From NCBI GenBank assembly GCA_026417155.1, contig JAOADU010000015.1, positions 1-48,725 on the forward strand: a DNA stretch of 48,725 nucleotides, written 5' to 3'. This stretch comes from Bacteroidales bacterium (lineage in GTDB: Bacteria; Bacteroidota; Bacteroidia; Bacteroidales; GWA2-32-17). The stretch's first letter is position 1. The number at the start of each line of letters is the position of its first letter. Positions 16,022 to 19,852 of this stretch are shown piece by piece. The notes beneath the pieces were generated by a model. It did no database searches and was not told the DNA's origin. It worked only from the letters and a program-made list of their open reading frames with translations. The position numbers and the translations under genes are program-made.

Positions 16022-18226
16022 TTAAATAGATAATTCTTTCAATGATCTGCGAATGTCGGTTTCTTTAAATCCTAAGGCAAAAAGAGTTAAGCAATAAGCA
16101 AGTAATACGTGTTTTTCGTGTTCTTCTGAAATGGGTAAATGCGTAATTTCATCGAAGTAGCAAGGAATAAATCTGTCGCGTTCGTGATAGATAACAATTC
16201 GATCCATATCAATGGCAGCAACGGTACGTCCTTTATCAATTAAATTGCGAACGGTACGAGAATCAATGTCGGTAGAAAAAAACAACGGTTGTGCATCAAT
16301 TCTGCTTTCGCTTTCATATACTAATGGCTGATCGGCATTGATAATAGCAAAGCCGTTTTTATCTATTTCTTCAACAACAACCGATTTAGCATAAGCAATA
16401 TCTTCTATATCGCGAATATGATCGTATTCTAAATAAAGTTCTTGTTCATATAAATTAAGAAAAATACCGATATGGGCAGTTTCATATCCAAGCCCGTAGT
16501 CGAGAATGCTTTCTACGGGTGTTTCTAAAATAGCCATATTGATAGTAGGATCTTTAAGTAAAATAGCAACGTTGTGACTATCGGCAAGTTCGACGTGTTT
16601 TATGTGTTGATTGTTAATGAATATGCCTTCCTGGTTTAATAATCCAACATAATAATTATGACGATTAAGAGTTTCGTTAAGCCATTTAGATAAAGTTGTT
16701 TTTCCTTTGCTGCCGGTAATGGAAATAATAGGAATTTTAAAGGGTTCATTTTGAGGGAAAAGCATGTCTATAAAAATTTTTTCTACATGTCGTGGTTGTC
16801 CTATAGTGGGGTTTATATGCATTCTAAAGTCAGGGGCAGCATTAATTTCAATAACTCTACCTCCGTTTTCTGTGAGTGGGATGGAAATATTTTCAGAAAT
16901 AATATCTATACCTGTAACATCAAGATTTAATATGCGGGCAATACGTTCACAAATAAATTGTGTATTGGGATGAACCATGTCTGTTACATCAACCGATGTG
17001 GCTCCTAAGCGCATATTGCCAGTATTTTTAAGGTACAGCTTTTTGTCTTTTTCAAGTACTGACGATAGTTGATATCCTTTAATATCAAGTATTTTTAACG
17101 TGTCTTCATCAATTTCTACTTTAGATAATCTGCCTTTGTCGCCAAATTCACGATCTGGTTGAGCATTCAGTTCGTCTATAAGTTGTTGAATAGTTTTTGT
17201 CCCATCACCTACAATAAAGGGAGCAATTAGTTGAACTGCTGCTGTATATTTTCCATTGATAATTAACATACGATATGTATTGCCAGTAATAAATTCCTGA
17301 ACAATTACGTCGTCGTCGTATGCTTTAGCCCAAAAAAAGGCTTTAATTATTTTTTCTTCTGTATCGAGATGAACATTTACACGTTTTCCACGGTAGCCTT
17401 TGGTAGGTTTAATGACTAATGGTTTTTGCAATTGATGAAAAAAATTAAGTGCTTCGTTAATGTGTTGAGTAGTAATGCGTCGAGGTACAGGGATGCTCAT
17501 TTCTTCGAGCATTTTGTATGTTATGTACTTATCGTCGGTATTTTCAACTGCTAAATAACTTGTGTACTGAGTAATAGTAGCACGGATGATTTTTCTGTAA
17601 CATCCTGTTCCTAGTTGCACGAGGTTATACCGATCGAGACGAAGTGTAGGAATGCCCCGTTGGTGAGCTTCGTTTACAATTTGTTGTGTAGAAAAACCAA
17701 GCAATCTGCGTTCGCGAATAGCGATAAGATTTTGAATTATAGGATTAATATCTATGGGTTGGTTTGTTAGTAAATGATTTAAAATATGTATAGCCATTTT
17801 GCCAGCATAGATGCCCGCATATTCATCGAAAAACCGAATAACAACATTATATACACCTTTAACCTTGGTTTCGCGTGTTTTACCAAAACCAACATTCATG
17901 CCAGCAAGGTTTTGAAGTTCAATTGCTACATGCTCCATGACATGACCAAGAAGGGTTCCTTCGTCCATACGCAAAAATAAACCTCCTCGTTGTTTCATAG
18001 AGCAATGGTGCTCGATAAGACTAGGAATAGTTTCTTTCAGTTTATCATTGAAACCAGGAATTTGGTTGGTAAAAACTTCATCAAATTCGTTAAGTTGAAG
18101 CCTAAAACGAATTACCTGTGCCCCACTAAAATAATTCGCTCCAATAAGAGTTTTGTGTGATAATAATTGAATGGGATAATTTAAAAAAGGCTGTTCTACA
18201 ATTTTAAGAACTTCTTGTTCGTTCAT
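16022..18226 (-). CDS. Cyanophycin synthetase-like ATP-grasp / truncated Mur-ligase-domain protein
   Basis: CphA N domain (GFNDKLKETIPSLIEHHCSMKQRGGLFLRMDEGTLLGHVMEHVAIELQNLAGMNVGFGKTRET); ATP-grasp (PLVIKPTKGYRGKRVNV...GIDIISENISIPLTENGGRVIEINAAPDFRMHINPTIGQPRHV); P-loop ISITGSKGKTTLSKWL. Ends before the C-terminal Mur-ligase lobe. Confidence 0.88.
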   Translation of the reverse strand: MNEQEVLKIVEQPFLNYPIQLLSHKTLIGANYFSGAQVIRFRLQLNEFDEVFTNQIPGFNDKLKETIPSLIEHHCSMKQRGGLFLRMDEGTLLGHVMEHVAIELQNLAGMNVGFGKTRETKVKGVYNVVIRFFDEYAGIYAGKMAIHILNHLLTNQPIDINPIIQNLIAIRERRLLGFSTQQIVNEAHQRGIPTLRLDRYNLVQLGTGCYRKIIRATITQYTSYLAVENTDDKYITYKMLEEMSIPVPRRITTQHINEALNFFHQLQKPLVIKPTKGYRGKRVNVHLDTEEKIIKAFFWAKAYDDDVIVQEFITGNTYRMLIINGKYTAAVQLIAPFIVGDGTKTIQQLIDELNAQPDREFGDKGRLSKVEIDEDTLKILDIKGYQLSSVLEKDKKLYLKNTGNMRLGATSVDVTDMVHPNTQFICERIARILNLDVTGIDIISENISIPLTENGGRVIEINAAPDFRMHINPTIGQPRHVEKIFIDMLFPQNEPFKIPIISITGSKGKTTLSKWLNETLNRHNYYVGLLNQEGIFINNQHIKHVELADSHNVAILLKDPTINMAILETPVESILDYGLGYETAHIGIFLNLYEQELYLEYDHIRDIEDIAYAKSVVVEEIDKNGFAIINADQPLVYESESRIDAQPLFFSTDIDSRTVRNLIDKGRTVAAIDMDRIVIYHERDRFIPCYFDEITHLPISEEHEKHVLLAYCLTLFALGFKETDIRRSLKELSI

Positions 18227-18273: not shown

Positions 18274-19791
18274 TCAAAAAGGTTCAGGGCTAAAAGTTAT
18301 TCCTTTGGTCGAAATTCCAACATTAAACAAATATCGTTTTTGTGAACCATTGTTTTCTTTACTTATATCCATGTAATCGAATTTCAACATGGCTTGTAAT
18401 TGCCATTTTTGTAATATTGTTCGATAAATGGCAAATGACAATATAGTTTGATGAGAATTATTGCCAATAAGCAAATAATTGCCGTAATCGGTACGATGGT
18501 CGTTGTATGAGCGATAAATGTTATTGCCTGCATTAAAATATGCAGAGCCTTGTCCCTGACGAGCATAAATGCCAAGCAAAGTAAATACCCATTGATTAGA
18601 ATGTTGATATGAAATTTGTCCTAGCCATTCAATAAAATTTGCTCCTAATGGATGAGCTAACGACTGATGCATGTGTCCCCAAGCTCTTAGGTAACTATCG
18701 TGTGCATAAGTAAAAGGCCTAACAACGTTACATTCAATTTGAGAAAATAATAAATTGCTGCGAATAGGAATGAAAGATTTTATACCTGCTTGAAGTCCAT
18801 ACTTATTACCCCACCAATGGGTTTTTGATTTCCATTCAGATAATTTGAATTCGTCTAACAAGAATTGGCTGTATAAAAAAGTTGTTTTATATAATTTTAA
18901 CCTAAAGCCAGCACCCATAAGAACATTGTCGGGTGAGCCAAGCGAAAATTCTACTGGACGAAAGAAAATAATAGGATTAATGTAGTTTATATCAAAATTA
19001 CGGTTGCCAATACTATCATGAACTTGCCATATAACAGTTTCAAATGCATGAATGCTAATTCGTTTGTTTACATTCCAACTTAAATAATGTAATGTACTGT
19101 TTTTACGAGTATATTTATTAGAGAAATTATTCCATTTGGGCTCATTTAAAAAGCTATACAGAACTATGTATTCAACATTCCATTTTTTTGCAGTGCCTTT
19201 AATATAAGGAAAGGGCGAAGCATTGTCGGAAATAAACAAGGAACGCTTACCTTCGCCAATAAAATGCTTTCCATAACCAATGTCAAATGCTAAAAATGAG
19301 AATGTTTGCCAGCGAATAGTTGTTGTCGGAACAAATGTTGTATATAATTGATTGTGAATGGATTTATATTTACCAACAGAAGGAATAACGCCTAAAGAAT
19401 CCATTGTCTTAGATAAAATATTTTCGGAAGTAATCAAATAAAATTCTGGATAAAACAGAATGCTTACTTTATTACGAAAACATAAACCAGAAAAGAATCC
19501 CCATCGTTGATAAGTTTGAAAATGTTGGTTAAATTGCAAATACGTAATTGGATAGAGAGCATAAGAAGACAAGGTATCGGAACGAAACTGATTTATAGAA
19601 AAATATGATGTAAGTTGCTTTGAGTTTTGCTTAATAAAATATGGTTTGATTGAAGTATGAACAGAGCTATCGTAGTGAAATAAATAATCAATCTTTAGAT
19701 AATTATTGTTAAATAATGGATAGATAAAATTTTGACAATATATTTGGCTAATGGCAAGGGAAATACATATTAAAGAAAGTTTAAATTTCAC
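18274..19791 (-). CDS. RemB/Wzi-like outer-membrane beta-barrel (gliding motility / capsule assembly-like family)
   Basis: YGKHFIGEGKRSLFISDNASPFPYIK, HYLSWNVNKRISIHAFETVIWQ, NYINPIIFFRPVEFSLGSPDNVLMG, RPFTYAHDSYLRAWGHMHQSLAHPLGANF. Start placed at GTG (VKFKLSLICISLAISQIYCQ signal peptide) because a TATTTTTG promoter element lies inside the longer ORF. Confidence 0.75.
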   Translation of the reverse strand: MKFKLSLICISLAISQIYCQNFIYPLFNNNYLKIDYLFHYDSSVHTSIKPYFIKQNSKQLTSYFSINQFRSDTLSSYALYPITYLQFNQHFQTYQRWGFFSGLCFRNKVSILFYPEFYLITSENILSKTMDSLGVIPSVGKYKSIHNQLYTTFVPTTTIRWQTFSFLAFDIGYGKHFIGEGKRSLFISDNASPFPYIKGTAKKWNVEYIVLYSFLNEPKWNNFSNKYTRKNSTLHYLSWNVNKRISIHAFETVIWQVHDSIGNRNFDINYINPIIFFRPVEFSLGSPDNVLMGAGFRLKLYKTTFLYSQFLLDEFKLSEWKSKTHWWGNKYGLQAGIKSFIPIRSNLLFSQIECNVVRPFTYAHDSYLRAWGHMHQSLAHPLGANFIEWLGQISYQHSNQWVFTLLGIYARQGQGSAYFNAGNNIYRSYNDHRTDYGNYLLIGNNSHQTILSFAIYRTILQKWQLQAMLKFDYMDISKENNGSQKRYLFNVGISTKGITFSPEPF

Positions 19792-19823
19792 GTAAAGTTG
19801 GTTATTATTTCGTAAAGTTGCAT

Positions 19824-19831
19824 CAAAAATA
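19824..19831 (-). promoter_or_regulatory. -7 promoter element (TATTTTTG) for the RemB/Wzi-like gene
   Basis: CAAAAATA on the plus strand, about 33 nt upstream of the proposed GTG start. Confidence 0.5.
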
Positions 19832-19844
19832 CGAAAAAACCACA

Positions 19845-19852
19845 TAAATTTG
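19845..19852 (+). promoter_or_regulatory. -7 promoter element (TAAATTTG) four bases upstream of the SDR start codon
   Basis: TAAATTTG-TTAC-ATG; predicts a leaderless or nearly leaderless mRNA. Confidence 0.5.

Follow-up and report, generated by a model that had tools for sequence, protein, structure and literature searches.

What remains for a cyanophycin synthetase to do once the C-terminal lobe of its Mur-ligase-like domain is gone? The question is posed by one gene in the window, the 48,725-nucleotide stretch of a Bacteroidales contig analysed here. CphA1 has been described as one machine with three enzymes, whose primer-cutting site was recognised only in 2022 (PMC9262961), and the original prediction, which regarded the gene as a truncated ligase, missed that this site is intact in its product and is the most strictly conserved feature across the family.

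The open reading frame is itself intact and separated from tsaB by 62 bp. Within its 734-aa product Pfam recognises the CphA N domain, an ATP-grasp domain and Mur_ligase_M, and reports no match to Mur_ligase_C; the CphA1 equivalog model of NCBIfam, TIGR02068, aligns at model positions 2-712 of 862 with 735 bits, below its cut-off of 850. Because the domain limits of TeCphA1 (N 1-161, G 162-487, Mcore 488-723, Mlid 724-876; PMC9427784) can be set beside this protein, the missing part can be named: judged by its sequence, the product is N, G and Mcore, with exactly the Mlid absent. Its features are as follows.

16022..18226, minus strand: lidless CphA1 homologue, 734 aa, identified from profile, sequence and AlphaFold2 evidence
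17705..18226, minus strand: N domain (Cyanophycin_syn, PF18921), about aa 1-174; Pfam E 5.9e-41; the slowest-evolving domain in the clade
16736..17704, minus strand: G domain (ATP-grasp), about aa 175-497; K233, K273, R319, D441, E460, N462 and R468 kept
16025..16735, minus strand: Mcore, about aa 498-734, stopping where Mlid should begin
16694..16714, minus strand: degenerate P-loop M, GSKGKTT, aa 505-511, from alignment to CphA1

The nearest solved structures are CphA1s, at about 35 % identity, and with the window protein as query they are matched at E 1e-142 versus 3e-55 for the CphA2 structure 7ta5. The AlphaFold2 model, for which 23 family members were used (pLDDT 91.9), has TeCphA1 (7wac/7wae) as its top PDB match, with a query TM-score of 0.85-0.88, and lies further from the CphA2 structures (0.63-0.68); of the two enzymes with which the original prediction had proposed to compare a model, CphA1 is thus the closer relative and CphA2 the more distant one.

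The same truncation is found in many relatives. Same-genus orthologues in three genomes, at 82, 70 and 61 % identity, end at the same place, and about 20 further Bacteroidales genomes encode members at 45-54 % identity, almost all of which stop at the Mcore/Mlid boundary, so that the truncation recurs in more than 20 Bacteroidales genomes. The other CphA1 matches counted at E <= 1e-60 in 396 genomes across the phylum all have open frames 872 codons long or longer, apart from one of 777. Conservation of one end point in so many genomes rules out a frameshift or decay as the source of the stop, and the loss of the Mur-ligase C-lobe predicted from the letters alone is upheld by this agreement, by the intact frame and by both profile comparisons. 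Two full-length relatives (G036, 884 aa; G122, 880 aa) nest among the lidless members of this clade, and a tree constrained to keep the lidless rows together is rejected by the AU test (p 3.5e-88, for a group named after the tree had been seen), which speaks against a single origin. Given this nesting, the lid was probably lost several times, the simplest reading of the tree.

The M site is degenerate as well. Across the clade D585 and H586 (CphA1 numbers) are not kept and the residues of P-loop M and T522 vary, and the window protein has neither a Mlid nor a complete M active site. The loss of the canonical M site that had been predicted therefore stands on the absent lid, the degenerate P-loop and the missing D585/H586, and the motifs on which the prediction drew (GSKGKTT, NLYEQELYLEYDHIRD, KPTKGYRGKR and GNTYRML) are all present. 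Could the protein retain classical CphA1 activity with a lid supplied in trans? P-loop M still reads GxxGK in most members, and in CphA1 the Mlid is mobile relative to Mcore (PMC9427784). Such an arrangement is nevertheless highly improbable: besides the loss of D585/H586, one member (G042) has a P-loop reading GYSGCS, and no candidate for the missing part came to light. A search with the G036 lid gave nothing in the source genome and chance-level matches in the other genomes tested, which removes a lid encoded elsewhere from consideration, and an additional stand-alone Mur ligase was likewise set aside, the source genome (G000) having six Mur C-domain proteins, the same number as a relative without the system (G004).

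If both the lid and the M site are dispensable, what is being maintained? The N domain carries, complete, the zinc site with which CphA1 cuts cyanophycin into primers, formed by C59, H79, E82 and H83 together with H57 and E87 (PMC9262961).

18002..18004, minus strand: C75, equivalent to CphA1 C59, third zinc ligand of the primer-cutting site (alignment; PMC9262961)
17930..17944, minus strand: H95-x-x-E98-H99, equivalent to the CphA1 HxxEH (H79, E82, H83) of the primer-cutting site (alignment; PMC9262961)
16370..16384, minus strand: S615...E619, equivalent to CphA1 S603/E607, M-domain residues touching the N-site cyanophycin; near-invariant in the clade (PMC9262961)

The C-x19-HxxEH motif, present in 83 % of CphA1s (nr70; PMC9262961), is formed in the window protein by C75, H95, E98 and H99. 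In CphA1 numbering, nine N-site positions (H57, C59, S60, R70, H79, E82, H83, E87 and T101) show no variation in the 23 clade rows that cover them, nor in the four rows whose G domain has been destroyed. Since the site is equally complete in a sample of canonical Bacteroidota sequences (35/35), its conservation is not special to the clade, and its weight lies in the contrast with the G and M domains. The two M-domain residues that face the N site are kept more strictly than in canonical relatives (S603 in 22/23 and E607 in 23/23 clade rows), and the YDHIRD...AKSVV.EE motif pointed out in the original prediction lies partly within the N-site groove. The domains also differ in their rates of change: on a fixed topology, summed branch lengths in the clade are 7.6, 10.2 and 14.5 for N, G and M, versus 7.2, 6.0 and 5.3 in canonical Bacteroidota CphA1s, so that the M domain of the clade evolves fast, the G domain less so, and constraint, as read from these lengths, is shifted toward the N domain. 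We infer that the N site is catalytically active in the lidless proteins.

These data also bear on whether the protein is a decaying relic without function. Decay would fit the rapid evolution of the M domain and the recurrent lid loss; it is largely refuted by frames that are intact in many families, by the 82 % identity to the G001 orthologue, by an invariant N site and by a confidently predicted fold (pLDDT 91.9), and we consider it very unlikely.

The G domain presents a different picture, with its ATP machinery preserved and its aspartate pocket rebuilt. In the window protein K220, K261, R309, D431, E450 and N452, which serve ATP and the chain end (CphA1 numbers), are all kept, as is E215, the holder of the arginine side chain at the chain end, and the domain therefore looks, from these residues, ATP-competent and chain-binding in the subclade of the window protein. 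Four positions around the incoming aspartate have changed.

17390..17392, minus strand: R279 in place of His267 of P-loop G (clade Q/L/R; canonical H in 32/36 rows)
17228..17230, minus strand: L333 in place of Arg323, which holds the beta-carboxylate of the incoming Asp (clade L 23, V 1; canonical R 35/36)
17009..17011, minus strand: R406 in place of Ser396, Asp pocket wall (clade R/K 22/24; canonical S 36/36)
16829..16831, minus strand: D466 in place of Gly456, oxyanion site (clade D 24/24; canonical G 35/36)

The changes (H267 to Q/L/R, R323L, S396R/K and G456D) are clade-wide, full-length members included, and bear out the earlier remark that the ATP-grasp loops are unusual; none of the residues by which CphA1 recognises aspartate (H267, R323, S396) is present in the window protein. 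The comparison set is mostly canonical, 34 of its 36 rows being Bacteroidota full-length CphA1s, and the single exception at R323 and at G456 is one and the same row (L104).

With the pocket rebuilt in this way, a changed ligase activity of the G domain is possible in the window's subclade. The domain might then be an active ligase of altered specificity, which either attaches a residue other than aspartate to the chain end or makes the beta-aspartyl dipeptide that CphA2 joins, the two proteins forming a complete synthetase together. We regard this as a tentative alternative. It would account for the retention of the ATP-grasp residues in nearly all main-clade rows and for four concerted pocket changes, and it would provide a source of beta-Asp-Arg that is otherwise missing, there being no extra Mur ligase (six in both G000 and G004) and no stand-alone lid. 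On the other side, retention of E215 argues for a chain, not free aspartate, as the acyl substrate, and characterised CphA1s are impaired or inactivated by each of H267A, R323A and S396W (PMC9427784; PMC9262961). Moreover, in four rows from two lineages with lidless homologues no working ATP-grasp is left.

Among these lineages, L096 (in G182) and L104 (in HGW-Bacteroidetes-6) have lost ATP-grasp residues and kept the N site. In two genomes of a distant Bacteroidota family (G736 and G678) the gene order is CphB - CphA2 - lidless CphA1-like, and the homologues there have lost K220, K261, D431, E450, N452 and K499 of P-loop M; R309 and R458 remain, and Pfam recognises the N domain alone (E about 1e-45). 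The canonical sequences all fall on one side of a branch with 100/100 support and these homologues on the other, their finer placement being unsure because of long branches.

The presence of CphA2 beside such a protein raises the question of what else the genomes encode. The original prediction noted no cyanophycinase next to the gene; the statement is correct for the locus and fails genome-wide, and absence of a cyanophycin system is not supported. The source genome encodes a cyanophycinase (G000:C33:7926-8777; TIGR02069, 206 bits, cut-off 126.6) with a GTSAGA nucleophile motif, and a CphA2-type synthetase (G000:C23:10118-12013) that is cut by a contig end, its last part lying on C3. The latter matches the CphA2 structure 7ta5 at E 6e-137 versus 3e-59 for CphA1, is nearest to 7ta5/8fxh over its full length, has CphA2-type residues and belongs, with the other Bacteroidales CphA2s, to one clade that includes GcCphA2. 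Of the case that had been named as contrary to the prediction, namely a cyanophycinase elsewhere with this gene as the sole synthetase, only the first half is thus found. In counting cyanophycinases, stronger S51 matches (about 240 aa; seen in 13 of 14 genomes) were set aside as dipeptidase E-like because of their length and because genomes that lack CphA1 also have them. The G000 assembly yielded neither isoaspartyl dipeptidase (IadA) nor a second CphA2; since contig C58 ends within the orthologue of the gene that adjoins this pair in G001, their absence is likely an assembly gap.

The lidless gene of the source genome lies away from the other cyanophycin genes, and the neighbourhood survey suggested by the original prediction accordingly finds neither cyanophycinase nor IadA beside it, although both are clustered with lidless CphA1 in relatives. 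Such clusters read CphB - CphA2 - IadA - lidless CphA1 in G042 and lidless CphA1 - CphB - IadA in G061 and G282; lidless CphA1 is clustered with CphB in G091 and G337, and in G349 it adjoins and faces IadA - CphA2. The envelope role earlier proposed from a Wzi-like neighbour is not borne out: the upstream gene (18274-19845, minus strand) matches the Wzi-type barrel family no more than marginally (PF14052, 13.6 bits, cut-off 30.1), and among the loci compared only G001 shares it in this position.

Across 393 Bacteroidales genomes, CphA2 occurs in 22 of the 25 that bear the clade versus 4 of the 368 others (Fisher p 6e-29), and a cyanophycinase above cut-off in 24/25 versus 47/368; p-values here are indicative only, because the genomes are related, the 25 include G035 (a contig-end fragment only) and the divergent G182, and one of the underlying searches took two candidates from each genome. 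Exceptions to the pairing exist, since G670 has CphB - CphA2 and no lidless CphA1-like gene beside them; G181 and G194 have CphA2, and no clade match was found in either.

Several further observations concern these loci. In G670 the slot after CphB - CphA2 is taken by an OmpA-family protein (L167:9927-12272). Isoaspartyl dipeptidases of Bacteroidota have been said to remain undiscovered (PMC10206079); IadA-type genes occur in Bacteroidales cyanophycin clusters (L038:4333-5490, L045:2240-3415, L126:2018-3178, L131:3029-4189 and others), and the two tested against TIGR01975 score about 475 bits (cut-off 331). Genomes G001-G003 (L042-L045, L048, L050) have two CphA2 paralogues each: the shorter, about 633 aa long, adjoins IadA, and the longer, about 677 aa, has a charged extension at its N terminus. 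In some Bacteroidota, genomes of family f136/g263 encode one to three ATP-grasp proteins, many of about 600-670 aa, that share about 33 % identity with CphA2, chiefly in the G domain.

Might the window protein, by losing its lid, have become a second CphA2 that polymerises beta-Asp-Arg itself? It shares the architecture of CphA2 (N, G and a lidless M), and CphA2 also lacks P-loop M and Mlid (PMC9427784), but a true CphA2 is already encoded, CphA2s keep R323, S396, G456 and a phenylalanine at 458 where the lidless clade does the opposite, and TeCphA1 mutants gain no CphA2 activity (PMC9427784). We consider such a second invention unlikely.

The reading that we favour, and hold to be somewhat probable, is that the protein descends from CphA1 and that its constant job is chain cutting on behalf of CphA2, Mcore serving as a scaffold. 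It starts from features visible in the sequences themselves, namely the loss of the lid, the altered residues, the invariant N site, and the co-occurrence and clustering of the genes, and it is suggested because CphA2 has no N-site motif (alignment; PMC9262961), because SuCphA1 still confers primer independence in trans after both of its synthetase sites have been inactivated (PMC9262961), and because the isolated N domain is insoluble until its M-packing loop is mutated (PMC9262961). The polymerase of this Bacteroidota system would be the CphA2-type enzyme, and the window protein a CphA1 descendant within it. The zinc hydrolase site of the N domain would cut cyanophycin chains internally and, by analogy with SuCphA1, may work in trans with CphA2, supplying primers or new chain ends to an enzyme that has no such site. 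Mcore would be retained because the N domain docks on it and because it forms part of the substrate groove, while Mlid, and arginine condensation with it, would be dispensable and hence lost repeatedly. The G domain, dead in two other lineages, would in the window's subclade add a different unit or stand idle.

Against a role in cutting alone stand the ATP-grasp residues, nearly all kept in that subclade (K220, K261, R309, D431, E450, N452); their retention would be hard to explain if only cutting mattered, and is the main argument for a changed specificity of the G domain. It is conceivable, with low confidence, that the two activities are combined: the CphA1 remnant cuts chains and CphA2 joins dipeptides, without an arginine-condensing M site, and a re-tooled G domain in the window's subclade makes or adds a new unit, so that the product is possibly not plain cyanophycin. 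The lid and Mur ligase searches revealed no beta-Asp-Arg isopeptide-forming enzyme of known kind in the lidless genomes, whose dipeptides may come from scavenging, from the altered G domain or from another enzyme.

In summary, these lineages seem to have given up one or both synthetase sites yet keep the cutter, beside CphA2, which suggests that some bacteria split the making of a nitrogen polymer between two proteins. The independent role of the cutter thereby becomes testable in Bacteroidota, in a natural CphA2 system outside the cyanobacteria and in a phylum where it was not expected, CphA2 having been described as a cyanobacterial enzyme (PMC9262961, PMC10206079). It also raises the question of where dipeptide units come from in cells with CphA2, cyanophycinase and isoaspartyl dipeptidase and no arginine-condensing site.

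Set beside known systems, the window protein resembles CphA1 (SuCphA1 7lg5/7txv, TeCphA1 7wac/7wae) in its fold over 734 aa, its C-x19-HxxEH site and its ATP-grasp core residues, and differs from it in lacking Mlid, in its degenerate M site and in an aspartate pocket altered by R323L, S396R, G456D and H267R. With CphA2 (7ta5, 8fxh) it shares the absence of Mlid and of a working M site; unlike CphA2, which has no cutting motif, a phenylalanine at 458 and an otherwise canonical G pocket, it has the motif and R468. In sequence and fold it lies further from CphA2 (TM 0.63-0.68) than from CphA1, and it coexists with a separate CphA2 in the same genome. A direct precedent is SuCphA1 with its G and M sites inactivated (PMC9262961), in which the cutting site is likewise intact and the synthetase sites are disabled, and which supplies primers in trans to another synthetase; whereas that protein is a laboratory construct, the losses seen here arose in nature, and CphA2 is presumed to be the partner.
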